NCBI RefSeq assembly: GCF_958298935.1
Contig: NC_084933.1
Coordinates: forward strand, 4,137,001 to 4,201,000
DNA from: Phragmites australis
Lineage: Eukaryota > Streptophyta > Magnoliopsida > Poales > Poaceae
DNA: 64,000 bases
Direction: 5' to 3'
Shown here piece by piece: positions 44,432 through 64,000 of the stretch. Both the position numbers and the translations under genes were made by a program. Under the pieces are notes generated by a model. The model ran no database searches and was not told the origin of the DNA. It saw nothing but the letters and a program-made list of their open reading frames with translations. Each line of letters opens with the position of its first letter. The stretch's first letter is position 1.

Positions 44432-47390
44432 TGTAACACCCTACTTATCAAATTTGCAAGTTTCTAAAATTGGCTAGACTTTATTTAGAGTTTGAATTAA
44501 ATTGCCTAGGTTTAAAATCTAATTTTAAAAGTTAAATTCCAAATGCACATAGGCTATATTTGATTTATATGCATTCACGCTGAGTATAGGCATGTAGGGT
44601 TTTTTTGGAGTTTATTTGGCTTTGTTTTAGTTTATTTTGCTTTGAATTCGAATTTCGAATGAATTTAGAAAAGGAAATGAAATAGAAAAAAAAAATCCTG
44701 GGCTGCTTCCTCTCCCTTTTGAGCCGCCCAGCCAATCGGCCCGACCTGCTTGGCTCGCTCCTCCCCTCTTTCCCTGGCCTAGTCGAGCCGACGTCCTCCC
44801 CTCCATTTCCTACTTAGGCCTCGGCCTTAGCCCGAGCCAACGCCGCAGCCTACCCGAGATGCCCGTGCCAGAGATTCCTTCACCCTGAGCTGCCGTCATA
44901 TGGGACCCATCGGGTCAGATTTGTCGTCTCCAAGTCGAACTCGACCAGCCACCGTGTTCGACTGGGATTTCCACCGTCACCCTGGAGTCCTAGCGCGACC
45001 CGAGCCTCCTTAGCTGCCTATATATGTTCCCTGGCCCCTCCTCAACCTTTTCCCCAAGACAAGTCGCTGAGTTCAAGCGCAAATCACCGAGATTGAGTTC
45101 GCTCGCCATTGCCACCTCCCTCGGTCGAGTTCACCGTCGCACCATTCCAGAGCCTCACGCCGCTGAAGCTCGTGCCGCCGTCGCCTTCGCTGATCAACTA
45201 CCGAAGCCGTTGTCCCGATGAGATCCGAGCTACTACGCTGCCTCTCCTGTCGTCGACGCCCTTCCTATGCCGCGCTGCCCACGGTAAGCCCCTAGATTGA
45301 CACCCCATACGCTTGTCGTTGTGTTCCACCACTCACCGTCGTCATCAGCAAGCCGGAGCGTTGTTCCATCGACCATCTGGCAAATGCGCCATCGCGATTC
45401 CCTTGGCTCCGTCGTGTTCCCTATCTTCGGTCATCCCTTCGTTGTGCGCTGTCAGATCTGTTCTCTACGGTCCAGATTATATCTATCCCGTAACACTTCG
45501 ATAGCCAACCAAAATGCACCACGTGTGGATCCTTAATCCCAGTCAGCGCTTTAGCCCAACCAATTGCCACGTGGGTGCCACATTAGCCTATCTAGTCTGT
45601 GTGTCAGCCCAGTCACGCCCATTCAGCAGCCACGTAATAAATCAATGTTTTTCAGTAAAAAAAATAATTCCAAATATTCCTAGAAATTAGTAATTTTGCA
45701 AATAAGCCCCTAGACTTTCTTGTTTTCACAAAAGAGCCCATATCTTTTTACACTTTAACCCCTAAATTTTTCTATAATTACAGTTAGGCCCCTCTATTTT
45801 TACAAAAAGACACCTAGAACTTTCCATTAATTACAAATTAGTCCTTTTCTTTTTATAAAATAAACCCTAATCTTGTTTTTAGCATATCTTTTTCGTCGTA
45901 GCTCCTTTTTCAGCGTTTCTTTGCGCTGTTGATTCGATTTTCAATGCTCTTTCTCTCTAGATGGGTTTTGTTTGGTTGTTCTTTTATTTTGTGCGCTGTT
46001 ATTAGTGTATTTTGGTTATGTACTTTGCCAGTAATTGGGCGATTAGACAACAATACCCTGGATTAGCTTGAGGAATGTCATGACCAAGAGCTAGAGTACG
46101 CTGAGCAGTAGCAAGGAGAAGGCAAGTGTACTTCTTGATCATCTTGAACCTATGTTCTTAAATATTTTTGTTTTACAAATTGCATACAGTGTCAATTTGA
46201 CAGGTAGTCACCTATGTTAGGGTTTACTTAGTTCTTCCTTTACATTCCTTGAAGCCTAAGTGGTAGTTGCTATGAGTCTCTTGGGTAAAATTGCTTAGCC
46301 ATACTTTTGAGATGTTGGGGAAATGTCATATACATATTTAGTGGGCATATGCAATGGTGATAATGAACTTGTTTTAGTAATATGGAACCCTAGGACTTGG
46401 CAAGGAGTTGGTTTGAATAATGGTGGTTCATGTGGTGGGCTTGTGGATACGTTCCAAGAAAAGGGTATTATGTTTTATTGGTTATTTCCCTGTTGGGTAG
46501 TCTTTGCCCAAGTGTCACATATAAGGATTGGTTCGAGGAGCAACAACCCAAGAAATACCGTTCAAATATGAGGCCGATATGGGTAAGGCTTAGCATATCA
46601 ATTAGACACCTGGGTGGCATTCGTTGGAGTACCAGGACCTAATTGATGGACCATACTTCGTAGTGATCTCCTGGCGACACATCACTGGTATGTGTTAAGT
46701 GTCTTGCAAACATGGCAACATGGGTATCACGACTCATTGCTAAAAGTTGGATAACCTCTGCAGAGTATAAAATTGTTATAACAGCTGTGCCCTCGGGGAT
46801 GAGAGACTTGGATTCTCACTTGATTAGATGGTTATGGTATAATACAGGTGGTACTAGCTGGTTATGGTTTATGGGATGTTTAACCTTGGATGGTTAGTTG
46901 TCGGGTTGTTGGGTTATATTTACTTAATAACTGTTTAATGCTTTTGAATTACATTACCATTTTCTTTACTCGCACTTATGCAAATATACCATGTATTAAC
47001 CTATTTTTGTTGTAAACCTGCATATCATTATCTTTCCCACACTTGCTGAGTACTCCATGTTCTCACCCTTGTTATCTCCCACAATACATATGTTGTTCAG
47101 TGGAAGACTTTGAAGATTTCTAAGATGACGACCTGGTGTTCTAGGAGCGTGTCTTCCGGTCGGTGCTTGTGGAGGCGTGTGGCCGCCAATGCTTCTGTTT
47201 CGCTGCCATTGTTTAGTTGTTGTTGTTTAGCTAATAGGTTGTTTAGGTGAAGTCTTTAATGTAAAAGTTAAACAGTTGTAAGTTAAAAGTATTGCTTTTG
47301 TTACTTCACCTGTAGTGTCCTTATGTGTGTTGAACTTCCTAGGCACACATAAGCCGCACTTGGTTTTGTCAGCTAAAATTAGGTGTGACA
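44432..47390 (+). mobile_element. Outer chromovirus 5' LTR (2.96 kb)
   Basis: TGTAACACCC...AGGTGTGACA. A CCTATATATG box lies at 45017-45026. It matches the 3' LTR at 62887-64000, with roughly one difference in ten bases over the first 170 by eye, so the insertion is old. The module CTCTGCAGAG (46756-46765), 7 bases, TTGTTATAACAG (46773-46784) is in the U5-side half. The antisense and sense open frames inside are not genes. Confidence 0.92.
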
Positions 47391-47394
47391 GAGG

Positions 47395-47406
47395 TGGTAT
47401 CAGAAT
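47395..47406 (+). other. Outer chromovirus primer binding site
   Basis: TGGTATCAGAAT follows the LTR after GAGG. It is the initiator-Met tRNA primer type with the last bases mutated. Confidence 0.85.
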
Positions 47407-47558: not shown

Positions 47559-48356
47559 ATGGTTCGCCAGCTGCTCACCGCTCGCAAGTCAACTGGAGGA
47601 CGTCCACCCATTCTTCAATGTGTTCCAACTGAAGAGGAGATAGATGATCCCACCTTCCGCAACATGGATCCTGTTCCTGACGTCTACGAGAGTGACGGTC
47701 TTCACACTGGACACCTTCCTCGCCTACTGTAGGGAATACTTTCTGAACTTGGACATACACAGAAGCCGATCTACAGGGGAATTAAGAAGCAATACTCTAG
47801 ACATGTGGAATGGAAGGTAGAAGTCACCATCTATGACTACGAGCAAAGTGAATATGAAGGAATGGATGTTCGTCGAGTTGTGGGCATTCACTCAGCAATG
47901 ACCCCAAGAGCAACCTTCACTGCCGGTGTTCGAGATGCAGCACTTCAAGCCATATCTTGTGTTCAAGACCAATACAACAGCAAGATGGTCAACTCGCCTT
48001 ATGCATACTATACCCGAAGAACTCGTGGGAGTGATGAACTGTTCGTGAAGCACCCTTTCAGATAAAGCCCTAAGCTACATGAACAAGTTGCGCTCACTAT
48101 GGCCTTGGAAGATGAATTGGACTGTGCCCTATGGGAGTTGGGAGATGTTCGTCAACGCCTCGCCTTCGTCACTTCACTTCTTGAGGATGAGAATGATGCC
48201 AACCAAGGAGAACCTACATAAGGTGAAGAAGAAGCCATGTCTATCCACTCACCCCCGTGCAAGAGGATCTGCCTCAATGCCCCCGCCGTAGAAGAAGAAG
48301 GACCGGTCGATTCTTCCCCCTCAGGATCCCGCACTAGGGAGGAGTCCCAACAGTAG
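47559..48356 (+). pseudogene. orf0 of outer chromovirus, histone-H3-tail-like start
   Basis: A 265-codon frame between primer site and gag, intact in register but with stops at 47730 (TAG, a CTGCAG site in the nested copy), 48063 and one further TAA. The N-terminus MVRQLLTARKSTGG aligns without gaps to histone H3: R2, T6 to G13, P16 and Q19 are identical in mature H3 numbering. Then come HVEWKVEVTIYDY, the conserved core RRVVGIHSAMTPRATFTAGVRDAALQA, and EQVALTMALEDELDCALWEL (probable coiled coil). Near the end is SPPCKR. The nested element has a homologue (54329-55072). An extra ORF before gag is known in rice RIRE3/RIRE8-type elements; its function is unknown. The ATG is directly preceded by a pyrimidine tract and TAG. 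Confidence 0.8.
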
Positions 48357-48618
48357 AGTCTTTAGTAAATCGTCTTAGTTTTGCTAGAGTTGAGCGCCTA
48401 TGTAATCGTTAAGGATAATAATGATAGTGTGAGAATTGTTATGGTGCTAAATGTGTGATTTAGATCTTTTGTTTGTGTGTCAGTGTGTGCTGTGGAATGC
48501 TTTGGCAATCCACAGTCACATCTTTAATATCTATAATATAATATAGTTGGGTTTTCTTAGTTAAATCATTTTCTAGTCTTGCTTATCTACTCTGGTCCCT
48601 CTTTCCAACCTTAATTAG
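48357..48618 (+). other. orf0-gag spacer
   Basis: Non-coding. It ends in a pyrimidine-rich stretch and CCTTAATTAG directly before the gag ATG, which looks like a 3' splice site. It is homologous to the gag-proximal leader of the left element (3277-3560). Confidence 0.6.
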
Positions 48619-51158
48619 ATGGTTCATACAAGAAGGAGCACCAATACCAATGAAGAGGACAACAACAATCAGAATCCACCCCGCCTCCTCCAATGACCCT
48701 AGAACAACAGATGGCTATGCAAACTCGGATCTTATAAGCTTTAGCTCAAACTATGGTGCAAATGCAGCAACATCAGCCAAATCATGTTCCTCAACCCCAT
48801 CAACCATCAAGACTTGGAGAATTCAAAAGAATTCAACCCCTAGTCTTCAGTCATGCAGTGGAGCCTATGGATGTAGATGATTGGCTGAAAGATATAGAAA
48901 GGAAGCTACAAGTTGCACAGTGCAATGATAGAGAGATGGTACTCTATGCTTCACACCAACTCGCCAGTTAGGCTTTGAACTGGTGAGAAGTATATTGTGC
49001 CACACATGATAATCCAGCAGCTATCACTTGGATGGAATTCGAATCCAATTTCTACACTCATCATGTGTCATCAGGAGATGTACGTTTGAAGAAGAAGAAA
49101 TTCATGAGCTTGAAGAAGGACCAATGACTGTAAGGGAGTATGTGGTCAAGTTTACCTAGTTGTCTAGATATGCTCCAAATGAAGTAGATACAGATGAGAA
49201 GAAGCAGGAACGCTTTCTGGAAGGTTTAAATGATGCTATTGAATATGTCTTACTTCCTCAAGAGCTCCCTAATTTCCAAGCAATGGTGAACAAAGCTTTA
49301 GTGGTTGAACACAAGCATCGTCAACTAAACGAGAAGAAGAGGAAGATGTCTTTCCAAGGACAAGGAAGCAACACATGTCCCTGTGTGGCAACTCAACTCC
49401 CCCTCAAGGTCCTATGTTCCGTACCAATAATCAGTACAGGCCTCAGTCTCAATCCCATATTCAGCGCTCCAACTATCAGACACCTCGTTCAACTCCACCA
49501 TCTATTCCTCAAGTCAAGAACAACCCCGCTACTCCCGCCTCAGGCAAAGGATGTTTTCACTGTGGACAGCAAGGACACTATGTGAATCAATGCCCTAAGA
49601 AGAATCTAAATCAGTCCAACACCAACACCCCGAAGTCCACTCAATTTCAATCACAGGCGTGTAATGGAAATCAAACCCCTGTTCAGAACAATTGTGGACA
49701 GCAGAATTTCGTTCAAGTGAAGGTTAATGATGTCATCGCAGAAGAAGCTCAAGATGTTCAGGATGTGGTGTATGGTATGTTCCTCGTCAACTCTCAACCT
49801 GCATCAGTTTTGTTTGATTCTGGAGCTTCGCATTCTTTCATAACTACCTAGTATGTTGCCAAGCATGGTTTACCTATGGTTATGATGAAACAACCTATGC
49901 TTATTAGCTCTCCTGGAGGAGAATTGAAAGCACAATCTATGTGTCATGGGATGAAACTTAAAATAAGAGGGGTAGACTTTCCAGCAAATCTTATAGTCAT
50001 GGAATCTAAGGGCATAGATGTTATCCTCGGAATGGATTTGTTATTCAAATTTGATGGAGTAATTGAGTGTGCCAGAAGAGCAATCCACCTGACCAATGGA
50101 GATGGAACCAAAGTTGAGTTTGTAGCTACTACCCCAGCAGTAGAGGATTGTTCTCTCAATTTACTTGAAGAAAACCCCATTGATCATATCAGAGTGGTCC
50201 GTGGTTCCCGATATTTTCCTCGATGAATTGTCAGGTATGCCACCAGATCAAGAAATTGAGTTTGTCAATGAAACTGTACCCAGTACGGCCCCTATAGCTA
50301 AAAGGCTATATAGAATGTCTGCTAATGACCTAGCTAAGTTAAAGAAGCAAATCTAAGAAAAATTAGGTAAAGGTTTTATTACACCAAGTGCGTCACCTTG
50401 GAGAGCCCCAGTTCTTTTCGTGGATAAGAAGGATGGTACTCAAAGAATGTGTGTAAACTACAGTGCGCTCAATGATGTGACCATTAAGAACAAGTACCCA
50501 TTACCCCAGATTGAGGATTTGTTTGTTCAGATGAGAAGAGCCCGAGTGTTCTCCAAGATTGAATGTAAGGTCTGGATATTATCAATTGAATATTCGATCA
50601 TACCCAAGACCTCCTTCAGTACTCGATATGGACTATATGAGTATACTATTATGTCATTTGGATTGACCAATGCCCCAGCCTATTTCATGAATCTCATGAA
50701 TAAGGTATTTATGGATTATCTGGACAGGTTTGTAGTGGTTTTCATTCATGATATTCTAATTTTCTCTAGGAGTGAAGAAGAACATGAAGAACATTTGAGA
50801 ATTGTGCTACAGACACTCAATGAGCATCAGATGTATGCCAAGCTTAGCAAGTGTGGTTTTTGGATAGATCAAGTCGCTTTTCTCAGCCATATCATAACAG
50901 TTGGAGGTGTAGCAGTAGATCCAAGCAAAGTGAAGGATGTGTTGAATTAGTTACAGCCTACCAATGTGTCAGAGATCCAAAGTTTCCTCGATTTAGCAGG
51001 ATATTATCGCCGCTTCATAGAAGGATTCTCTAAGATAGTCCGACCTCTTACCTCTTTGCTACAGAAAAATGTGGTTTTTAAGTGGAGCCCACCTTGTCAA
51101 GCACGTTTTGAAGAATTGAAGAGGATATTGACTACAACCCCAGTGCTAGTTCTACCAG
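48619..51158 (+). pseudogene. Outer chromovirus gag-pol, first part (gag, PR, RT)
   Basis: Starts MVHTRRSTNTNEED. The Pro run is frameshifted near 48680. The capsid core follows (GEFKRIQP, MDVDDWLKDIERKLQ, ASHQLAS-stop-ALNW), with further shifts near 49120 and 49370. The zinc knuckle CFHCGQQGHYVNQC is intact (C-X2-C-X4-H-X4-C). The protease motif is FDSGASHSFI. RT shows [25 protein letters not shown] and [10 protein letters not shown]. The active site reads FIHD instead of F(I/V)DD (CAT at 50747-50749), so it is catalytically dead. The frame reaches TTTPVLVLP at 51158, where the nested element is inserted. Confidence 0.88.
51154..51158. repeat. Target site of nested chromovirus, left (ACCAG)
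   Basis: ACCAG here and ACCAA at 60931-60935 are the presumed 5-bp target duplication with one difference. The reading frame of the host pol continues across. Confidence 0.75.
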
Positions 51159-54151
51159 TGTAACACCCTAAATTTCAATTGTTTGCAATAATTTAAAATT
51201 TTGCTAGAAATTAATTAGGTGGTTGCAATTTTGTTCAATAGGAAAATTAATTTCTAAATTTAATTTGCCTAGGTTAAATGTTTGTTGCATTCATGCCGTT
51301 GTAGATGCATTAAGATTTTTTTGTGTGGAAAAAAGTTTGCTAAAATTCGCTCGTTTAAAACTCCATGTTGAATTGTGTCGAAATTCAAATTGGAAAAGGT
51401 TTTGGAAATTAGAAAATTGCTTTTGGGCTGATTCTCCCTCCCTCGGCCCATCTCCCCTCCCCTCTTGTCCTTCCCGCAGGGGCCTCATTTCTTCCGTACC
51501 GGCCCACAAGGCCAGCCGGCCCCCTTCCCGCCCCTTGCTACTGCCAGGTGGGGCCCAGCTGAGCCGGCTCCCCCCTCGCCTGAGCCGCTCCCCTCCCCGC
51601 CTCTCTCTCTCCCTGCGCGCTGGATCGGCTGAGCCGAGCTGCGCCGAGCGAGCCACCCGCCTGTCGAGCCGGCTCCCCTTCCCCTACCTCCTGTCGAACC
51701 CCCCCCCCCCCCTGAGCCCTCAAATCTCACCGTCATTTCCAATTTCTGCCTCCCCGTGCTTTGATTAGCGAATTAAAGCACGCCACAACGATCCCCTCCC
51801 TCCATTACCTCCTCCCCGACCGTTTCCCCCTTGATTCCCCTCTCTCTTGCGCTGGAAACCAAAGCTTTGATTGCATTTGGAGCCGCCGGCCAATCTTCTC
51901 GAATCCGACCGTCTCCCTCCCCCTCTCGGCTATTTAAGCCCTCCACCGACTCCCTTGCGTCATTCCACACCCGAATAACCCGTTTCCCCTCTCTCTTGCG
52001 CTCAGATTTGCCACGACCGCCGTCTCCGCCATTGCCATCGGTAAGAAGCTTGGCCGCCGCCCTTTTTCTCCATGGCTGAGCCTCAATTGATCTTGTTCTT
52101 CGCTCAATCGGTGTCACAGGGTCTCGGTCAACGCCCCCCGTTGCTTTTTGGAGCTCTTTGCGCCGCCGGACGCCATCCCCGCCGAGCTCCAACGCCGCCG
52201 CCCATTCCTCTCCATCGCCGGCTGTCTCCGAACCCCCTCCACCATAACCGATCCCGCTGTGAGACTCCCTTTCTCCCCCTCTCTCTTTTGCGCCGCTCGC
52301 CGTCGTGAACTGAGGCCGGTAACGAGTTTTTGTGCTACTCCAACGAGCCCCGCCGCCGCCCACCGCCGTCGGCTGCCGCCCCTTCTCTATGTGCCGCCGG
52401 TGCCCCCCCCCCCCAATTGAACTACGGCCGTTGGATCCAAATCCGGCGGTCAAGATTAGATATCCCTTGGGTTTATGAAGCCGGTCCACCATGGACCCGT
52501 GCACCGGCCAATTGGCCGTGGTCCGCAAGCCTCGTAGACTTATTCCATGGCTTTTACAGTAGAAAATCAATTCAGTAAATCTTTATTGCGTCATAATTCA
52601 ACTTTTCAATATAAAATCAATTCGGGTTTCTCTTGAAAATAATGTAAAATTTGCAGAATGGCCCCTATAACTTCAAATGCTTATTACTTTTTGCTCGTAG
52701 CTCTGTTTTGGGCGATTTTCGCGTCCAAATGTTCGTAGCGACGTGTAGAATCTTTTTATAGGTTTTTTCTTAGATTCTATACTGTCTGGTGTAATGTTAT
52801 TAGAAGTTGTTTTGTGTGTGCTTTTCCGGTTTGTCGATTAGGAATTGAGCAATTCGGTAACCTCCAAGGCCAAGCATTCGAGGATGTTGAGCAGCACCTT
52901 GTCGAAGGCAAGTGTCCTTGAGCATATTTATCCTTTTTTAGGATTTGTAGGTGTAGTTTTTATCCTTCAATATGCATGCTGTCAAATATGATGGCCCATG
53001 ATTAGGGTTTACTAGTTTTGAATGAATTTTTCCTTATCGCCGTTGTTCATCACGTTATGAAAATGGGTAGTTTATGCTAGCGCAGTCTTGATTGGGAAAT
53101 CTTAATATCGACTAATGAACTATGCAATAATGATGGGAGATGGTAATTCCTTTTGTAGCAGCATGGTATAGGAATCCCCAACAGAATGGATGGTTTGAGG
53201 CGGAGCCTATGGCATGTTTGTGTTTGTATCTGTGTGGGGTCCTAAGGACCGGTTCTTGGACATGTAACCAAGTTATATCCGCACAACCACGAGGCCTATA
53301 TGGGTACGGCCTGGTCAACTAATTAGTTGCCTTCTAGCTTTGTGGGCACCATAGGTCGGTATAAGAGGCACAAGAGGGAGCTTTTGCAGCAATGTAATTG
53401 TCTGTTAGCGGTGAAACCTCAGTGGGTGCCTGCAAGTTAGATGGAGCTTTGTAAAGGTATTGTAGTGAGACCCTGACTCCACACCCTAGAAGTATGGAGC
53501 AACACGGGAATCACGACTTGTGGGGAAAGCAGTGCAAACTCTGCAGAGTATCGATCTGGTCGATCAGCCGTGCTCACGGACAAGTGCAAGCTTGGACTTC
53601 TTCAGGATTAGTTATGGTAGCCAGGTAATAGAATTACCTAGTGAGTCTTGGTAGTCAGATGGAATCCGGTGTGTCATATCCCGTTGGTTACAGCAGTGTC
53701 TTCACACTTAGTTGCTTAGTGTTGTTAGCCAGTGTCAAGCCTTTCCTTGACTTAAGCCGCATATCGTGTTCTTCCCTGCACTTGTGGAGTACAATCTTTG
53801 TACTCACACTTGTTGTCCCCTACCCTGCATTCTACCACCGTTCAGAAGCCGCCGATGAAGCTGGAGCCTTCGATGACGACAACTTTGACCTGGAGCTGCT
53901 GTTCTAGGCTGTGGTGCTCCCGGTCGATGCCTGTGGAAGATGGAGCCGCTGGCGCTAAAGACCCCCCCCCCCCTTTTTGTTCTCTGCTGTGTTTTCTTTT
54001 AGACCATCGGGTCCTTTTGTGATAAGCTAAATACGATGTTGTAATAGTGGCACTGTGATAATAACATTGATGATGTAAGCACATGTATGAATCTAATTCC
54101 TGGCATACATGTGTTGTGCCCGGTTTTGGCCGTTTAAAACTGGGTGTAACA
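51159..54151 (+). mobile_element. Nested chromovirus 5' LTR (2.99 kb)
   Basis: TGTAACACCC...GGGTGTAACA. A TATTTAAG box lies near 51931. It carries the module CTCTGCAGAG (53539-53548), 7 bases, CTGGTCGATCAG (53556-53567). The GC-rich U3/leader segment (51420-52420) is open in several frames on both strands, including a 265-codon minus-strand frame at 51773-52570. I judge these to be compositional. Confidence 0.92.
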
Positions 54152-54155
54152 GAAG

Positions 54156-54167
54156 TGGTATCAGAGC
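54156..54167 (+). other. Nested chromovirus primer binding site
   Basis: A perfect TGGTATCAGAGC, complementary to the initiator-Met tRNA 3' end, four bases (GAAG) after the LTR. Confidence 0.92.
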
Positions 54168-54328
54168 CGTGTTGACCGTAGGATGCAGCCTAGATAGTAT
54201 GGACGCGCTAAGGACTTATGTTTATACAAACTACTTTTGCAAAGTTGTTTTTCTTCCAGTTTTTCCTTTCTCAGTCTACTGTTCTTTATAAAATGGTTAC
54301 TGATTTCGGTCTTTCTTCAAAATTTTAG

Positions 54329-55072
54329 ATGGCCCGGACGAAGATCACCCCGCACAAGCGCATGCTTGTGCCAGACGTGGAAGTTCCTGCTGATGCAGTC
54401 TGGAAGCACCAACCCCCAGCTGAGTTCTACTCCGACGAATAGCTGGCTAGGTACTTTGCCTGCACTCTGTGGTACCTGCTGCAGGGTCTTGGTTACCACG
54501 ACGCTCCACTCTTCAGAGGCGTCAAGGTTCCGCTTGAAGGACATGGTTACTCCTGGTCAGTGGAGGTGACCATGATCGAGAAGCCCTCCGACGACGGTCT
54601 TCGTCGAGTTCGTCGAGTCCACACCGCCACCTCCCTCAGAGCTACGTTCGAGGCAGGGATCAAAGACGCCGCTCGCCAGGCTCTGGCTGTTCTCTACCGG
54701 GAGAACAGACAGGACCTCAGCCACACCCAATTCAGGAAGTTCCTGCAGCACCCGTCAGGCAGCCTGGAGGTCACCTTCGCACCCGTGGGCAACAGAGCAG
54801 ATCTCCGTCTGAGAGAGCAGGTCCGCCTCACCGCCGCCCTCTACGCCGAGCTGGACAGAGCACTCGACGAGTTGGAGGATCTTCACCAGCACCACACCGA
54901 TCACGAGCAGATGATCTACGAGCTGGAGATGATGCTGCAGGACCCTGACCAGCACCCCGACCAGGTTCCCCCGGCACCGGCACCTGCGCCTGCACCGCCC
55001 CGCTCTCCGCCGTGCAAAAGGCTTCATCAGGCAGATGTTGCAGGCCCTTTAGCCATAGCAAGCCAAAGGTAG
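54329..55072 (+). pseudogene. orf0 of nested chromovirus, histone-H3-tail-like start
   Basis: A 247-codon frame with a single stop (TAG at 54440, probably CAG). It begins MARTKITPHKRM. A1-R2-T3-K4, T6 and K9 equal mature histone H3, aligned from the initiator Met without gaps. Then come YSWSVEVTMIEKP, RRVRRVHTATSLRATFEAGIKDAARQALAV, and a Leu-rich heptad region (LREQVRLTAALYAELDRALDELEDL), likely coiled coil. A Pro/Ala stretch and SPPCKRLHQ (possible nuclear signal) follow. It is homologous to 47559-48356 in order and spacing. It lies between primer site and gag, with TTTTAG immediately before the ATG. Confidence 0.85.
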
Positions 55073-55397
55073 AGTCAAGCTAGGAGGATGTCCCTAGCTG
55101 AATAAGTCATTTAGTCCCATGTGTCCTTGTTGTCTTGTGTCGTCTGTTCATGTGTGTGCTTGTGCTTGAGTCTGTAGTATGAACCTTGTTATGAGTTGGA
55201 TCTTGGATCTTTGATTGAGTGTTGGTGTGATGTAGGGGTTTCCCCTCTACATTTTCATCAGTTAATAATATAATAGTTGGGAGTCCTTTCTATCTGTTTC
55301 TTTCAGTTTCCTTCAGTTCCTATCAATTCTTTTCTGTTCTTGTCTCGTTTTCTGCCTTTGCTTCTCTCTTATGTTCCCGGTACCTTGGCGACTACAG
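55073..55397 (+). other. orf0-gag spacer, nested element
   Basis: Non-coding and pyrimidine-rich towards its end (TTTCTTTCAGTTTCC region). It finishes GCGACTACAG directly before the gag ATG, like a 3' splice site. Confidence 0.6.
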
Positions 55398-57662
55398 ATG
55401 GTGAACACCATACGTAACAACAACACCAACAACGCCAATGACAACATCAACGACAACGCTGCCAACAACAACAATCTTCCTCCCCCGCCACCCCTCATGG
55501 ACGCCAACCAAGTCATGACTCTTCTTCAAGGCTTGGTCCAAGCAATCAACCAGCAACACCAAGCTCAGCAGGCACCGCTACAGTAGCCACAGTCTCGACT
55601 TCGGACTTTCTTGAGCACCCAGCCACCTACATTCTCTTAGGCAGTGGAGCTAATGGAGGCAGATGGTTGGCTGAAAACAATCAACAGCAAGGTTCAGATA
55701 GCTCAGTGCAATGGACGGGAGAAAGTCCTCTTTGCATCCCACCAGCTGATTGGGCCAACTCAGGAGTGGTGGACTGCTTACACCGCTGCTCATGAGGATC
55801 CCCAGGAGATCACCTATGCAGAGTTTCAGAACAGCTTCCGCGCTCACCATGTCCCTACCGGAGAAATAAAGGTAAAGAGGAAGGAGTTCCTCAATCTCAA
55901 GCAAGGACCTATGTCTGTGAGGGAGTACCTCACGAAGTTTACTCAATTGTCTCGCTACGCCCCCAACGACATCGAAATGGATGAGAAGAAACAGGATTGC
56001 TTTCTTGAGGGTATTAACATTGGTCTGCAGTATGCCCTCTTCGCCAATGAGTACCCCAGTTTCCAGAAACAGGTAGATAGCGCCTTCATCATGGAGAAGA
56101 AGCGCCAGAATTTGGGTGAAGAGCGTAAGCGCCGTCTGCAGAGTTAGTCTTCTAGCAGCAGCACCCGCCCCCGCTTCAACGCCCCTGCCACTGGTCCGAT
56201 GTTCCGCCATGGAGGGCAGAACCAGCAGCAGCAGAATCAGTCGCAGAGGCCGTAGCAGAAAATGCAGAATCAAGGTACAGGGTCGTTCAAGCTGCCAGTG
56301 CAGCCGCAGCAGCAACAACAGTCTCGCCCCAGCTTCCAGTAGCAGCAGCAGCGACCCAATAACAGTCAGCCACAGCCGCAGAACCACAACGGCCAAGGGT
56401 CAAGCAACATTGGGTCGTGCTTCAGTTGCGGCAACTTCGGGCATCTAGCCAACAAGTGTCCCAAGAAGCAGCAAGGCCAAGCCCAGGGCAACAACCAGCA
56501 GCAGCAGCCTCGCCAGAACGCAATGTATGGTTGTGTCAACCATGTTGCAGTGGAGGAAGCCCAGGAAGCTCCTAACGTGGTTCTGGGTATGTTTTTTGCC
56601 AACTCTCATCCTGCAACAGTATTATTTGATTCCGGTGCTACGCATTCATTCATATCCTATCAGTTTGTGAATACATATAAGTTGCCAAGAGCTTTATTGA
56701 AAAATCGAGTGCTAATAAATTCTCCAGGAGGAGAAATGGAATCAAGGCATCTATTCCCTAAAATAAGTATATGCATAAGGGGGGTAGACTTTCTGGCCAA
56801 CCTCATCATTCTGGAGTCCAAGGGTATTGATATCATTCTGGGGATGGATGGGCTAACCAAGTACAAAGGAGTCATCGGGTGTGCTACGAAGACGGTTCAG
56901 TTGACACATACAGACGGAACCAAGGTGGAGTTTCAGGCCACGACAGAGTCAGCTATCAACGCCAATTTAAACAAAGCCAACGTAGTGGAAGATAGCAGGG
57001 TGGTCAGTGAATTTCCTGACGTCTTCCCGGAGGATTTGCTAGGTATGCCACCTGATCGAGAAATTGATTTTGTCATTGAATTAGTACCTGGAACGGCTAC
57101 TATATACAAGAGGCCATATAGAATGGATGCCAATCAATTGGCTGAGCTCAAGGAACAAATCCAAGAGCTACTAGACAAAGGGTTTATCCGCCCCAGTTCT
57201 TCACCCTGGGGAGCCCCAATAATCTTCGTTTCGAAGAAAGATGGTACACAGAGGATGTGTATAGACTATCGAGCTCTGAATGAAGTAACAATCAAGAACA
57301 AGTACCCTCTACCCTGCATCGAAGATTTGTTTGATATGCTTATTGGCGCATGTGTGTTTTCCAAGATTGATCTTCGATCTGGATACCATCAGCTGAAAAT
57401 TCGTGCTCCCAATATCCCCAAGACAGCATTTGTTACTCGGTACGGTCTGTACGAGTACACAGTGATATCTTTCGGGCTGACCAATGCCCCGGCATACTTC
57501 ATGTATCTGATGAATAAAGTCTTTATGGAATATTTGGACAAGTTTGTTGTGGTGTTCATTGATGATATCCTGGTCTACTCCAAGAACAAAGAAGAGCACG
57601 AGGAACACCTAAGGATGGTTTTGCAGAAGCTCAAGGAAAACCAGCTATACGCTATACGCTAA
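55398..57662 (+). pseudogene. Nested chromovirus gag-pol, first part (gag, PR, RT)
   Basis: Starts MVNTIRNNNTNNANDN, an Asn-rich N-terminus. The capsid region is MEADGWLKTINSKVQIAQ, ASHQLIGPTQEWW, FRAHHVPTGEIKVKRKEFL and YAPNDIEMDEKKQ. TAG stops replacing Gln lie at about 55584, 55638, 56145, 56252 and 56339. The zinc knuckle is [14 protein letters not shown]. The protease motif is [12 protein letters not shown] runs from about 57000 with [22 protein letters not shown] and the intact active site FIDD (57558-57569). The frame ends at 57662 because of a 7-bp tandem duplication at 57645-57658. Confidence 0.9.
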
Positions 57663-59916
57663 ACTGAGCAAATGTGAGTTCTGGTTAAAGGAAGTTCCTT
57701 TCCTTGGTCACATCATATTAGAAGGAGGTGTGTCTGTAGATCCGTCCAAGGTAAGAGATGTTCTGGATTGGAAGCCACCGCAAAATGTATTCGAGATTCG
57801 CAGTTTTCTGGGTTTAGCAGGATACTATCATCGTTTCATAGAAGGTTTCTCCAAGATAACGAAGCCAATGACAGAACTGCTAGAAAAACCAGCAGAGTTT
57901 AAGTGGACAACAGCTCGAGAAGCTAGTTTCAATGAATTAAAGAAGAGGTTGACCTCAGCACTAGTTTTGATCATGCCAAATACTCAGAAACCATTTTCGA
58001 TGTATTGTGATGCATCTCGTCAAGTCTTGGGATGTGTGCTCATGCAAGAAGGTCATGTTGTTGCATATGCATCCCGGCAGTTAAGGAAACATGAAGAGAA
58101 TTATCCAACACATGACTTGGAGCTAGCCGCAGTGGTTCACACACTCAAGATCTGGAGGCATTATCTGATTGGTCAGAGATGTAAGATCTATTCTGATCAT
58201 AAAAGCTTGAAGTATATGTTCACTCAACCGGATCTTAAACTCAGGTAGTGCAGATGGTTAGAGCTCAACAAGGACTATGATCTGGGAATCAACTATCACC
58301 CAGGAAAGGCAAATGTAGTAGCTGATGCCTTGAGAGTCCCAAATTAATGCAATGACTCATCAAGAGTTGAGTCCCGAGCTATCCAAAGAGTTCGAGAGGT
58401 TAAATATGGGAATGGTGTATAACACCAGATGGTTGCAATGGAAATAGACTCGACGCTTGAGCAAGAAATAAGAAAGGGTCAACTTGAGGATGAAAAGATT
58501 TTGGAAATCAAGCAGCTCATTAAAGTTGGCAAGGCCCCAGATTTTTTTGTAGATGAGCAGGGCACAGTGTGGTATAAGCACAGGATTTGTGTTCCGGACA
58601 TAAAGTCTATTCGGGATACAATCTTAAAGGAAGCCCATGATTCGGCATATTCCATTCACCCAGGGAGTACCAAGATGTACCAAGATCTTAAAGATCAGTA
58701 TTGGTGGTATGGGATGAAACGCGCAGTGGCAGAATATGTGGCTTTGTGTGATATCTGTCAGCGAGTCAAAGCCGAGCATCAAAGACCAGCAGGACTGCTA
58801 CGGCCATTGAAAGTACCTAAATGGAAGTGGGAAGAAATCAGCATGGACTTCATAGTGGGTCTACCGCGAACACAATCAGGACATGATTCTATATGGGTCG
58901 TAGTTGACCGGTTCACAAAAGTAGCTCATTTCATTCCAGTAAAGGAATCCTATCGAGGTCCAAAGCTAGCTGAATTGTATATGTCCAAAATTGTGTGTCT
59001 GCATGGGGTACCCAAGATAATTGTATCTGATCGTGGCAGCCAGTTTACCTCACGGTTCTAGCAACGATTGCATGAATCTATGGATACAAGATTGAATTTC
59101 AGCTCAGCATACCACCCGCAAACTGACAGACAGACAGAAAGAGTAAATCAAATTCTTGAAGATATGTTGAGAGGATGTGCATTGAAGAATGGTAATAGTT
59201 GGGACAAGAATATGCCGTATGCGGAATTTTCGTACAATAACAGTTACCAGGCTAGTCTTAAGATGTCTCCTTTTGAAGCTTTATATGGAAGGAAGTGTAT
59301 AACCTCGTTGTTCTGGAATCAAGCCGAAGAAAGCCAAGTTTTAGGTCCAGAAGTTCTAAGAGAAGTTGAAAGACAAGTGCAAGAGATTCAGGATAATCTG
59401 AAAACAGCACAGTCAAGGCAAAAGAGTTATGCAGATCATCGACGCCGAGAACTGACTTTTGAAGTAGGAGACTTCGTGTATCTCAAAGTATCACCAATCA
59501 GAGGACTACGTAGATTCAAAGTCAAAGGCAAGCTTTCACCTCGATTTATTGGTCCGTACAGGATTTTGGGAAAATGAGGAGAAGTAGCTTACCAGCTTGA
59601 GTTACCACCTCAACTCTCCGGAGTACACAATGTGTTCCATGTATCACAGTTGAAGAAGTGTTTAAGAGTTCCCGAAGAATAGTTGCCAGTAGAAGAACTG
59701 GATGTGCGAGAAGATCTGTCATATTCAGAATATCCGGTCAAGATCCTTGAGACATTAGAAAGGGTTACCAGAAACAGGCGAGTCCTAATGTGCAGAGTGC
59801 ACTGGAAGTATCACTCAGAAGAAGAAGCAACCTGGGAAAGAGAAGATGATCTGAAGACGGAGTTTCCCCATCTCTTCTCTGATCCTTCCGAATCTCGAGG
59901 GCGAGATTCATCCTAA
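57663..59916 (+). pseudogene. Nested chromovirus pol, second part (RT end, RNase H, IN, chromodomain)
   Basis: Continues after the frameshift: [28 protein letters not shown], then RNase H ([42 protein letters not shown]). A stop lies at 58246 and a deletion shifts the frame near 58333. Integrase: HDSAYSIHPG and CDICQ (zinc-binding HHCC), SMDFIVGLPR, VSDRGSQF and TERVNQ (D, D, E). The C-terminal part (DFVYLKVSP, KGKLSPRFIGPYRI) precedes the chromodomain (VLMCRVHWKYHSEEEATWERE). Stops lie at 59061, 59576 and 59681, and a TAA at 59914 within the SRGRDSS...GG end. Confidence 0.9.
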
Positions 59917-59928
59917 GGGGGGTAGGTT
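59912..59928 (+). other. Nested element polypurine tract
   Basis: TAAGGGGGGTAGG directly before the 3' LTR. The pol stop TAG lies within it. Confidence 0.85.
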
Positions 59929-60930
59929 TCTAACACCCTAAATTTCAATTTTTTTTGCAATAATTTAAGATTTTGGTAGAAATTAATTAGGTGGTTGCAA
60001 TTTTGTTCAATAGGAAAATTAATTTCTAAATTTAATTTGGCTACGTTAAATGTTTGTTGCATTCATGCCGTTGTACATGCATTAAGATTTTCTTGTGCGG
60101 AAAAAAGTTTGCTAAAATTTGCTAGAATTCGCTCGTTTAAAACTCCCTGTTGAATTATGTCGAAATTCAAATTGGAAAAGGTTTTGGAAATTAGAAAATT
60201 GCTTTTGGGCTGATTCTCCATCCCTCGGCCCATCTACCCTCCCCTCTTCTCCTTCCCGTGCGGGCCTCATTTCTTCCGTGCCAGCCCACAAGGCCAACCG
60301 GCCCCCTTGCCGCTGCCAAGTGGGGCCCAGCTGAGCTGGCTCCCACCTCGCCCGAGCCGCTCCCCTCCCCGCCTCTCTCTCTCCCTGCGCGCGGGCCCAG
60401 CTGAGCCGAGCCACGCCGAGCGAGCCGCCCGCCTGCCGAGCCGGCTCCCCTTCCCCTACCTCCCGCCGAACCCCCCGAGCCCCCAAATCCCGCCGTTGTT
60501 TCCAATTTCCGCCCCCCCCCCCACGCTTTAATTCGCGAATTAAAGCACGCCTCCAGGATCCCCTCCCTCCATTACCTCAACCCCGACCGTCTCCCTACCC
60601 CTCTCGGCTATTTAAGCCCTCCACCGACTCCCTTGCGTCGTTCCGCACCCGAATAACCCGTTTCCCCTCTCTCTTGCGCTCGGATTTGCCCCAGCCGCCA
60701 TCTCCGCCATTGCCGCCGGTAAGAAGCTCGGCCGCCGCCCTTTTTCTCCATGGCCGAGCCTCAATTGATCTTGTTCTTCGCTCAATCGGTGTCGCAGGGT
60801 CCCGGTCAACATCCCCCGTCGCTTTTTGGAGCTGTGATGATAACACTGATGATGTAAGCACATGTATGAATCTAGTTCCTGGCATACATGTGTTGTGCCC
60901 GGTTTTGGCCGTTTAAAACTGGGTGTTACA
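59929..60930 (+). mobile_element. Nested chromovirus 3' LTR with 1.9-kb internal deletion
   Basis: Matches both ends of the 5' LTR (51159-52160 and 54055-54151) but joins them at about 60833, after CTTTTTGGAGCT. The second LTR base is C instead of G (TCTAACACCC). It ends GGGTGTTACA, followed by ACCAA. The deletion removes the conserved dyad module and the U5-side core. Confidence 0.9.
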
Positions 60931-60935
60931 ACCAA

Positions 60936-62883
60936 ACATCAGCAAGAACTTTGATATCTACTGTGATGCTTCGTGGCAAGGGCTTGGATATGTTCTTATG
61001 CAAGAAAGTCAACTCATAGCTTATGCGTCAAGGCAGTTAAGGAAGCATGAGGAGCATTACCCTACGCATGACCTGGAATTAGCAGCAGTAGTTCATGCAC
61101 TGAAAATTTGGAGACACTATCTCGTTGGAAAATGGTGTGAGATATACACGGATCACAAGAGTCTAAAATATATATTCACCCAACCGGATTTAAACCTTCA
61201 TCAGCACCGATGGCTAGAGTTAATCAAGGACTATGATGTGGGAATCCATTATCACCCAGGAAAGGCTAATGTGGTAGCCGATGCTTTGAGTCGAAAGAGT
61301 AATTGTAACTTGATGATGGTTCAAGATAGTCAACCCGAGTTATGAAAAGAGTTTGAGAAGCTTAACCTTGGTTTTGTGGCAGATGTAGAAGCAACTACCA
61401 TGGAAGTTGATTGCACATTAGAGAAAGATATTCATAAAAGTCAACTTGAAGATGAAAAGCTCATGGAAATAAGGTAGCTTATTAAGGATGATAAAGCACC
61501 AGGCTTTACAGAAGACAGTCAAGGTATTGTGTGGTTCGAAAAGAGAATCTATGTGCCCAATTAGAAGGGCATTAAAGAGTTAATTTTAAGGGAAGCCCAT
61601 GATTCAATATATTCCATTCACCCTAGAAGCACGAAGATGTATCAAGATTTCAAAGATCGTTATTGGTGGTATGGAATGAAAAGAGATGTTGCAGAATACG
61701 TAGCCCTGTGTGATACTTGCCAGAAGGTCAAAGCAGAATATCAGAGACCAGCAAGATTGCTATAGCCTTTGAAGGTACCTGAGTGGAAATGCGAGGAAAT
61801 TGGTATGGATTTCATTATCGGATTACCCCGTACACAAGGAGGATATGATTCTATATGGGTTATAGTTGATCGTTTGACTAAAGTCACTTATTTTATTCTC
61901 GTTAAGACTACATATAATGGAGCCACACTAGCAGAGATGTATATGTCAAGAATAGTGTGTTTGCATGGAGTAACAAAAAAGATTGTTTCGGATAGAGGAA
62001 CTAAATTTACTTCCAAGTTTTGGCAGAAGCTACATGAGTCTATAGACACGAAGATGAGTTTCAGTTCTGCCTATCATCCTCAAACTGATGGTCAGATTGA
62101 GAGAGTAAATTAGATACTCGAGGATATGTTAAGAGCTTGTGCTCTGAAGTATGATAAAAGTTGGGATAAGAGTCTGCCATATGCAGAGTTCTCGTACAAC
62201 AACAGTTATCGGGCAAGTCTCAAAATGTCTCCATTTGAAGCCCTATATGGAAGAAAGTGTAGAACACTGCTGTTCTAGAATGAGACTAGAGAAAGTAAAG
62301 TTTTTGGCCCAGAAGTTTGACGAGATGCAGAAAAGGAAGTTCAGATAATTCAAGAGAATTTAAGTATTGCATAATCGAGGCAGAAAGTTATGCTGATAAC
62401 AAACGTAGAGAATTGATTTTTGAAATTGGAGATTTCGTCTATCTCAAGGTTTCTACCATAAGAGATCTTCGTATATTTAAGGTCAAAGGCAAGTTTTCAC
62501 CAAGATTCATTAGACCTTTCAAGATACTGGATAAAAGAGGAGAAGTAGCTTATCAGTTGGAGTTACCGCCTCAGCTAGCAGATGTGTATGATGTCTTTCA
62601 TGTGTCTTAGTTGAAGAAGTGTCTTCGAGTGCCTGAAGAACAATTGCTATTGGAAGAGTTGGATGTTCAAGAAGATCTCTCCTATGCAGAGTATCCAATG
62701 AAGATCATTGAAAGATCAGAAAGGGTTACCAGAACCAAAGTGATACCAATGTGCAAAGTGCATTGGAGACACCACTCAGAGGATGAAGCAACATGGGAAA
62801 GAGAAGATCTGAAGTCAGAGTTTCCTCATCTTTTCTTCAATCCGTCCGAATCTCGAGGGCGAGAGTCATTCCAAGGGGGGTAG
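60936..62883 (+). pseudogene. Outer chromovirus pol, second part (RNase H, IN, chromodomain)
   Basis: Resumes with [22 protein letters not shown] and continues [25 protein letters not shown] and [16 protein letters not shown]. Integrase: HDSIYSIHPR, CDTCQ, GMDFIIGLPR, VSDRGTKF and IERVN. It ends with the chromodomain (VIPMCKVHWRHHSEDEATWERE) and FPHLFFNPSESRGRESFQGG. The stop TAG (62881-62883) is inside the polypurine tract, three bases before the LTR. In-frame stops and shifts occur at about 61343, 61476, 61562, 61763, 62111, 62276, 62317 and 62608. Confidence 0.9.
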
Positions 62884-62886: not shown

Positions 62887-64000
62887 TGTAACACCCTAAT
62901 TTTCAAATTTACAAGTTTCTAAAATTGGCTAGACTTTAACTTGAGTTTGAATTAAATAGCCTAGGTTTAAAATCTAATTTATAAAATTAAATTCCAAATG
63001 AACATAGGCTATATTTGATTTATATGCGTTCATGTTGAGTATAGGCATGTAGGATTTTTTTTGGAGTATCTTTGGCTTTGTTTGAGTTGATTTTGCTTTG
63101 AATTCAAATTTCAAATGAATTTAGAAAATGAAATGAAATAGAAAAAAATAAACATTTCCCAGGCCGCTTCCTCTCCCTTTCGGCCCGCCCAGCCAACCGG
63201 CCTGGCCTGCTCGGCTCGCTCTTCCCATCTATCCCTGGCCCAGTTGAACCGATGTCCTCCCCTCCATTTCCCGCTTGGGCCTTGGCCTAGGCCTGAGCTA
63301 ACACCGCAGACCACCTGAGACGCCCGCGCCGAAGACGCCTTCGCCCTGAGCCGCCACCATGTGGTACCCACCAGGTCAGATTTGTCGTCTCTAAGTCGAT
63401 CTCGGCCGGCCACCGTGTTCGACTAGGATTTCCGCTACTGCCCTGGAGTCCTAGCGCGACCCGAGTGTCCCTAGCCACCTATATATGTTCCCTGACCCCT
63501 CCTCGACCTTTCCCCCAAGACAAGTCACCGAGTTCTAGCACAAATCGCCGAGATCGAGTTCGCTACCATCACCATTGCCGCTGCCCTTGGTCGAGTTCAC
63601 TACTGCGCCGTTCCAGAGCCTCGTGCCGCTGTCCGAGCCCACTAGAAGAACCACCTACGACCGCTGAAGCTCGTGCCACCATCACATTCGTCGATCGACT
63701 ACCGAAGCCCTTCCTGTGCCGCACCACCCGTGGTAAGCCCCTAGATTGACTCCCCGTACGCTTGTCATCGTGTTCCACCGCTCACTGTCATCATTAGCGA
63801 GCCAGAGCGTTATTCCGTCGACCATCCGACGAGTGCGCCACCGTGATTCCCTTGGCTCTACCCTGTTCCCCTACTCCGATCGTCCCCTTCGTTGTGCACT
63901 GTCGGATCTGTTCTCTGCCGTCCAGATTAGATATGTCCTGTAACCCTTCGATAGCCAACCAAAATGCGCCATGTGTCGATCCTTAATCCTAGTCAGCGTT
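62887..64000 (+). mobile_element. Outer chromovirus 3' LTR, first 1.1 kb
   Basis: Matches 44432-45570 throughout, with a CCTATATATG box at 63478-63487. It is cut by the window end, so the right target duplication (expected CTATA) cannot be read. Confidence 0.92.

Follow-up and report, generated by a model that had tools for sequence, protein, structure and literature searches.

The H3-like start of orf0 in two nested retrotransposons

The right part of a 64,000-nucleotide stretch of the Phragmites australis genome (NC_084933.1, positions 4,137,001 to 4,201,000, forward strand; hereafter the window) consists of two long terminal repeat (LTR) retrotransposons, the nested copy (51159-60930) being inserted within pol of the outer one. 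In both elements, a primer-binding site is followed by an open reading frame (ORF) termed orf0, gag-pol pieces and a chromodomain. The only orf0 copies detected in the window are these two, both decayed with in-frame stops, and each begins with a stretch resembling the tail of histone H3. Lettered H3 positions such as R2 or K9 are counted from the first residue after the initiator Met.

47559..48359, plus strand: outer orf0, interrupted by in-frame stops from codon 58 onwards (tblastn with the relative P0009, 79% over 243 residues)
47559..47618, plus strand: H3-like tail of outer orf0, residues 1-20, MVRQLLTARKSTGGRPPILQ
54329..55072, plus strand: nested orf0 of 247 codons, interrupted at codon 38 by an in-frame stop (81% identity to the uninterrupted relative P0001)
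54329..54358, plus strand: H3-like tail of nested orf0, residues 1-10, MARTKITPHK

The starts at 47559 and 54329, and the residues matching H3, were read exactly as an earlier sequence-only reading of the window had given them. The outer tail equals H3 at R2, 6-13 (TARKSTGG), P16 and Q19, and the nested copy, starting MARTKITPHKRMLVP, at A1-R2-T3-K4, T6 and K9. Among the 2,368 ATGs of the window on both strands, the outer tail gave the best match to H3 residues 1-19 (11/19; the runner-up had 6), and permutation of its letters reached the observed match in 0 of 1,000,000 trials. When the outer 57-residue frame was compared with 177,635 PDB sequences by phmmer, H3 or H3-derived peptides accounted for 30 of the 32 matches at E ≤ 10. 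Judged from sequence, the two window copies by themselves make a moderate case, and it is the evidence from the family that is decisive.

Relatives collected without the tail

The search of 5.8 billion proteins started from residues 78-247 of the nested orf0 and went on with two tail-free alignments, producing successively 6, 17 and 1,830 matches, the last with 120 listed. These tail-free queries still recovered proteins starting M-[A/V/P]-R-x-[K/R]-x-T-[A/P]-R-K. Tails in relatives with complete starts include MARTKITPRKRV, MARCKITPRKRV, MARTRLTARKQVGG, MPRTRLTARKRV, MARRRLTARKRV and MARTKITNRRSD, and the largest orf0 family has the tail MARMKLTARKHV. An ungapped, in-register tail was found in 63 of the 135 proteins collected and in none of the other 72, which are mostly gene calls starting later, inside or beyond the tail. 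Out of register were P0008 and P0046, with a one-residue gap, and P0049, P0054 and P0072, with extra residues ahead of the tail. The one named relative, P0003 from the grass Eleusine coracana, is a gene call without the tail. Relatives with open frames share the H3-like N-terminus, and homologues found blind to the tail start with the same tail. No orf0 relatives were confirmed in IMG/VR and GTDB contigs.

Ten tails, five of the nested type, do not belong to the largest family; in these ten, R2 occurs in 8, K4 in 7 (R in 3), T6 in all 10, and R8 and K9 in 9 each. The 53 tails of the largest family have R2 in 50, K4 in 52, T6 in 44, A7 in 39, R8 in 49 and K9 in 52, and T3, Q5, S10 and T11 in 0. 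Tail position 5 is usually I or L, but L107-L109 and P0120 have R there (MARTRRTARK, MARMKRTAKK). The proteins of the largest family (P0020-P0135) came from JGI metagenomes in 114 of 116 cases, presumably soil or root samples that contained plant DNA.

To search PDB with the tail itself, we used a profile of nine tails, hand-picked as one or a few per lineage with the window copies excluded. Its top match among all PDB sequences was a histone H3 peptide of 25 residues (E 7.8e-4); E was about 0.034 for full-length H3 chains, and the best 60 of 120 matches were all H3 or Cse4. Two column-permuted profiles retrieved no histone from PDB, giving one match at E 1.4 and five at E 4.1 to 6.4, respectively. 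Permutation of the letters of three tails equalled the observed H3 match in 5.5e-5 to 1.9e-4 of trials. The profile, the permutations and the host-genome copies place the likeness to a histone tail beyond chance. At the level of sequence, orf0 thus starts with a conserved lookalike of the H3 tail, A1-R2-x-K/R4-x-T6-A/P7-R8-K9, and a variable linker comes next.

Identity windows, the tree and codon rates were computed on hand-picked representatives. Among nine proteins, three of them of the largest family, mean pairwise identity was 0.66 for tail residues 2-10, 0.29 for linker residues 11-30 and 0.51 for residues 61-125; the tail window ranked 10th of 220, and the best eight windows overlap at one helix. 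In a tail-free tree of 14 rows, inner stems reached 0.73 changes per column, and long branches led to P0012 and to the outer kin; of the 11 inner branches, 3 were well supported.

Copies of orf0 in the host genome

The 848-Mb host genome was searched in three ways: with the outer type including the tail, with the outer type lacking the tail, and with the distant P0008 core. We read 40 scored copies from the tail-included search and 30 of 40 scored places from the tail-blind search, the window copy being among them in both. Taking at least 45 of 63 bases in common with the window tail as in register, 28 of the 30 tail-blind copies, including the window copy, were in register. These 28 tails carry R2 in 22, T6 in 24, A7 in 22, R8 in 15, K9 in 27, S10 in 25, T11 in 27, G12 in 23, G13 in 26, P16 in 26 and Q19 in 25. 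The complete TARKSTGG is present in 8, window copy counted, A1 in 1, and position 4 is L in all 28. Both searches identify TARKSTGG as a property of the outer lineage, extending beyond the one copy in which it had been noticed. Position 8 is C or H instead of R in 12 of the 28. More broadly, at tail codons 8 and 14 of the outer-type copies L041-L070 arginine codons have often become C or H, and T6 is often I, changes which probably reflect C-to-T decay of methylated DNA.

In the P0008-core search, 150 of 1,427 candidate places were scored and 110 read (the best 30 plus 80 hand-picked), of which 104 had an ATG near the expected place and 6 had none within 9 bases. H3 residues 1-9 were matched at 6 or more positions in 86 and at 7 or more in 68 of the 104 located tails, many of which are near-identical, 31 having one and the same tail. 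The P0005-type lineage (n = 21) carries A1 in 21, R2 in 19, T3 in 20, K4 in 3 (R in 18), Q5 in 5, T6 in 18, A7 in 18, R8 in 19, K9 in 21, G12 in 20, G13 in 21 and P16 in 21. Members of this lineage outside the near-identical set can be closer to H3. L112, 70% identical to P0005 and open over the stretch read, starts MARTKQTPRKQVGGFIP and has both K4 and Q5, and Q5 is also found in L163, L171, L176 and L111. We infer that such members are explained more easily by descent from the 5' end of an H3 than by gradual convergence.

The possibility, raised in the sequence-only reading, that the match is confined to two decayed copies does not hold, the tail being shared by relatives and by other host-genome copies. 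The same reading supposed an ancestor with most of the tail, K4 included. In favor of this, every H3 residue from 1 to 13 occurs somewhere in the family; K4, however, is replaced by L in all of the outer-type tails and by R in most of the P0005-type tails.

P0005-type places were also seen in groups of two or three at a spacing of 8.6-8.7 kb (C10:34239263, 34247915, 34256558; C21:22864732, 22873387; C3:399352, 407977), which resembles tandem LTR retrotransposons. Several places of this lineage lie close to contig ends.

Element type and predicted fold of orf0

The primer-binding site core lies 172-173 nt 5' of the ATG in 23 of 28 P0001-type loci, and a gag piece is present in 29 of 30 loci, with none in L083. 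An extra open frame between the primer-binding site and gag, together with an integrase C-terminal chromodomain that scores above the Pfam cut-off in the nested element and slightly below it in the outer one, suggests that orf0 is a 5' additional ORF (5'aORF) of the kind known from Tekay/RIRE3-type chromoviruses. As the sequence-only reading noted, extra 5' ORFs in such elements are already described: those of the Tekay clade (RIRE3, RIRE8, Retrosat-2, maize Tekay and sorghum Sb7) occupy the same place ahead of gag as orf0. In plant LTR retrotransposons, almost 4,000 additional ORFs are reported, mostly without a known domain (PMC11728184). The maize and sorghum 5'aORFs have predicted helices, sheets and a long C-terminal helix, as orf0 does; the published fold search points weakly to a DRBM protein (TM 0.35-0.37), and the word histone occurs 0 times in the main text of that paper (PMC11728184).

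54449..54709, plus strand: predicted fold of orf0 resembling a double-stranded RNA (dsRNA)-binding domain (dsRBD), P0001 residues 41-127 (models of two relatives, VIA matches)
54803..54940, plus strand: predicted long helix of orf0, P0001 residues 159-204

In the predicted structure, the tail is followed by an alpha-beta-beta-beta-alpha fold of the dsRBD kind and then by the long helix. This predicted core fold is that of the dsRBDs of plant DRB, HYL1 and DCL4 proteins. In these domains, the KKxAK motif in helix 2 provides the dsRNA-contact lysines, whereas its basic triple was found in 0 of the 106 orf0 helices examined (of 135 proteins) at offsets -1 to +1, which rules out a canonical dsRNA binder. 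Pfam gave no match in P0001 or P0012 and four weak rows under their cut-offs in P0008, with no histone domain in any of the three. Nor is orf0 a histone H3 itself by these results, the predicted fold after the tail being dsRBD-like. A BFVD fold search gave nothing at E ≤ 0.001, and a PDB sequence search with P0001 gave a single, unrelated match (E 0.53). Set against the published Tekay 5'aORFs, which we liken to orf0 by their description, the differences reported here are the H3-like tail and the lack of dsRNA-binding lysines.

Proposed function and alternative explanations

A pattern of hydrophobic-R-K-hydrophilic-hydrophobic at residues 7-11, in which we chose to score P as hydrophobic, is present in 52 of the 63 tails, as compared with 0.12% of shuffles. 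This pattern matches the preference described in a review for the mammalian H3K9 enzyme G9a, for which the arginine is essential (PMC8541646). V11, although not H3-like, suits the G9a preference better than the T11 of H3. Residue 2 of the protein, next to the initiator Met, is small in 62 of the 63 tails. A small residue at this place leads to removal of the initiator Met, and the Met should therefore be removed from orf0 and a free H3-like N-terminus exposed, so that the tail would hang free as a real histone tail does. The tail may then act as a histone mimic, most likely serving host H3K9 writers or readers (SUVH or CMT type, or small-RNA-pathway readers of H3) as substrate or ligand. The sequence-only reading proposed that orf0 could recruit or decoy such proteins. 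The dsRBD-like domain, which may be one that contacts proteins, could link orf0 to the Dicer/DRB proteins of small-RNA silencing. In sum, RNA-directed and H3K9 silencing of the element would be blunted or redirected, or the protein would be carried to chromatin. That orf0 is an H3 mimic on a 5'aORF, engaging host H3K9 writers or readers, is a function which we infer from sequence and to which we give about even weight. A more elaborate version is less likely: a clade of plant chromoviruses would have captured an H3 N-terminus and joined a dsRBD-like domain to it, giving a two-handed anti-silencing protein that links the small-RNA and H3K9 pathways. The tail would be methylated and read as H3K9me, or would hold H3K9 enzymes, and Dicer/DRB proteins would be the docking site of the domain.

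The best E value of the outer-frame phmmer search was 0.3, and the nested tail, at 6/19, is level with one other window ATG and unremarkable by itself. These figures would suit a chance resemblance, which we nevertheless regard as very improbable in view of the family-level profile, the permutations, the relatives' tails and the host-genome copies. In shallow clades, dN/dS revealed no extra constraint on the tail, being 0.37 in the tail against 0.39 in the first clade, and 1.29 in codons 2-10 (0.52 in codons 2-12) against 0.18 in the second. The conservation of the tail is therefore a result of the deep branches.

The unremarkable dN/dS in shallow clades would also agree with a basic N-terminal arm that serves nuclear import or binding of the element RNA, in which the resemblance to H3 is incidental and hydrophobic residues 5 and 11 serve that other job. 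I/L5 and V11 are family-specific, S10 and T11 are retained in the outer lineage only, and published grass 5'aORFs are predicted to be nuclear (PMC11728184). However, the H3 register is exact from the start codon, the tail profile retrieves H3 from PDB while permuted profiles do not, and TARKSTGG in one lineage is accompanied by MARTKQT-RK--GG--P in a member of another; we consider such an arm possible, though on the improbable side. If the 5' end of a host H3 gene was captured long ago and retained for its start codon and short leader, with no mimic function, this would account for the members of the P0005 lineage closer to H3 (L112 with K4 and Q5; L163, L171, L176 and L111 with Q5), and for GG at 12-13 and P16 in two lineages. 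Across deep lineages, however, the tail is more conserved than the adjoining linker, which disfavors an inert leader and makes this explanation quite unlikely. Alternatively, the tail may be the ligand of the element's own group II integrase chromodomain and couple orf0 to the integration complex. This partnership, which the sequence-only reading had proposed, draws on the chromodomain encoded in both elements and on the description of plant group II chromodomains as domains whose ligand was not found; it is weakened, and in our view unlikely, as the same source describes them as lacking Y24, and usually Y48, and so most of the methyl-lysine cage (PMC3350952).

The reading of orf0 as an H3 mimic has counterparts in known systems. 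The influenza A protein NS1 has an RNA-binding domain. It is also a viral protein with an H3-tail-like peptide, as found in orf0 (PMC12937675), although the NS1 mimic is C-terminal, whereas that of orf0 is N-terminal, in H3 register and in a plant retrotransposon. G9a and similar ARK-type H3K9 mimics have an A-R-K core, present also in orf0, that is recognised as H3K9 (PMC8541646); the G9a site lies within a host enzyme, in contrast to the orf0 tail at the start of a transposon protein. The Pyrenophora hAT transposon with the gene H3L is likewise a transposable element carrying H3 sequence (PMC3538342), but this gene encodes a histone H3-like protein with a globular domain in a fungal DNA transposon, whereas orf0 has the tail only, on another protein. 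Thus histone mimicry in viruses and host proteins, Tekay 5'aORFs and a fungal DNA transposon with an H3-like gene are already known. In open-licence papers, searched by titles and abstract openings, we found none that describes an N-terminus resembling the H3 tail in a plant transposable element, and orf0 would, as far as this literature shows, be the first histone-tail mimic described in one. The H3-like start together with a predicted fold like that of small-RNA proteins suggests that these elements may imitate the histone tail to handle the machinery by which they are silenced; in the more elaborate version given above, a single transposon protein would stand where small-RNA and H3K9 silencing meet. 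The conserved H3-like N-terminus opens both the function of the additional ORF and the chromodomain ligand to direct, cheap peptide tests.

Other features of the two elements

The remaining features, all on the plus strand, are as follows; LTRs were located by direct repeats with their ends read.

44432..47390, plus strand: 5' LTR of the outer element, start TGTAACACCC (direct repeats D1, D10, D11 and D13 against 62887 onwards)
47395..47406, plus strand: primer-binding site of the outer element, core TGGTATCAGA, read in sequence
49375..49851, plus strand: outer gag/protease piece with CCHC zinc knuckle and RVP_2 (Pfam)
51154..51158, plus strand: target-site duplication ACCAG to the left of the nested element (on its right, 60931-60935 reads ACCAA)
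51159..54151, plus strand: 5' LTR of the nested element
54156..54167, plus strand: primer-binding site of the nested element, TGGTATCAGAGC, read in sequence
56523..57662, plus strand: nested protease and reverse transcriptase piece (RVP_2 E 1.3e-44, RVT_1 E 3.7e-29)
57730..58248, plus strand: nested RNase H piece (Pfam)
58429..59061, plus strand: nested integrase piece with H2C2, rve being under its cut-off (Pfam)
59683..59916, plus strand: nested integrase chromodomain (Pfam Chromo 25.3 bits, cut-off 25.1)
59929..60930, plus strand: 3' LTR of the nested element, internally shortened
62611..62883, plus strand: outer integrase chromodomain, slightly under the Pfam cut-off (Chromo 23.1 bits, cut-off 25.1)
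62887..64000, plus strand: 3' LTR of the outer element, running past the window end

In PDB, CBX1 and Clr4 matched the nested chromodomain weakly, at E about 0.1. The 3' LTR of the nested element measures about 1.0 kb as compared with about 3.0 kb for its 5' LTR, and repeats D6 and D16 locate a deletion of ~1.9 kb inside the former.

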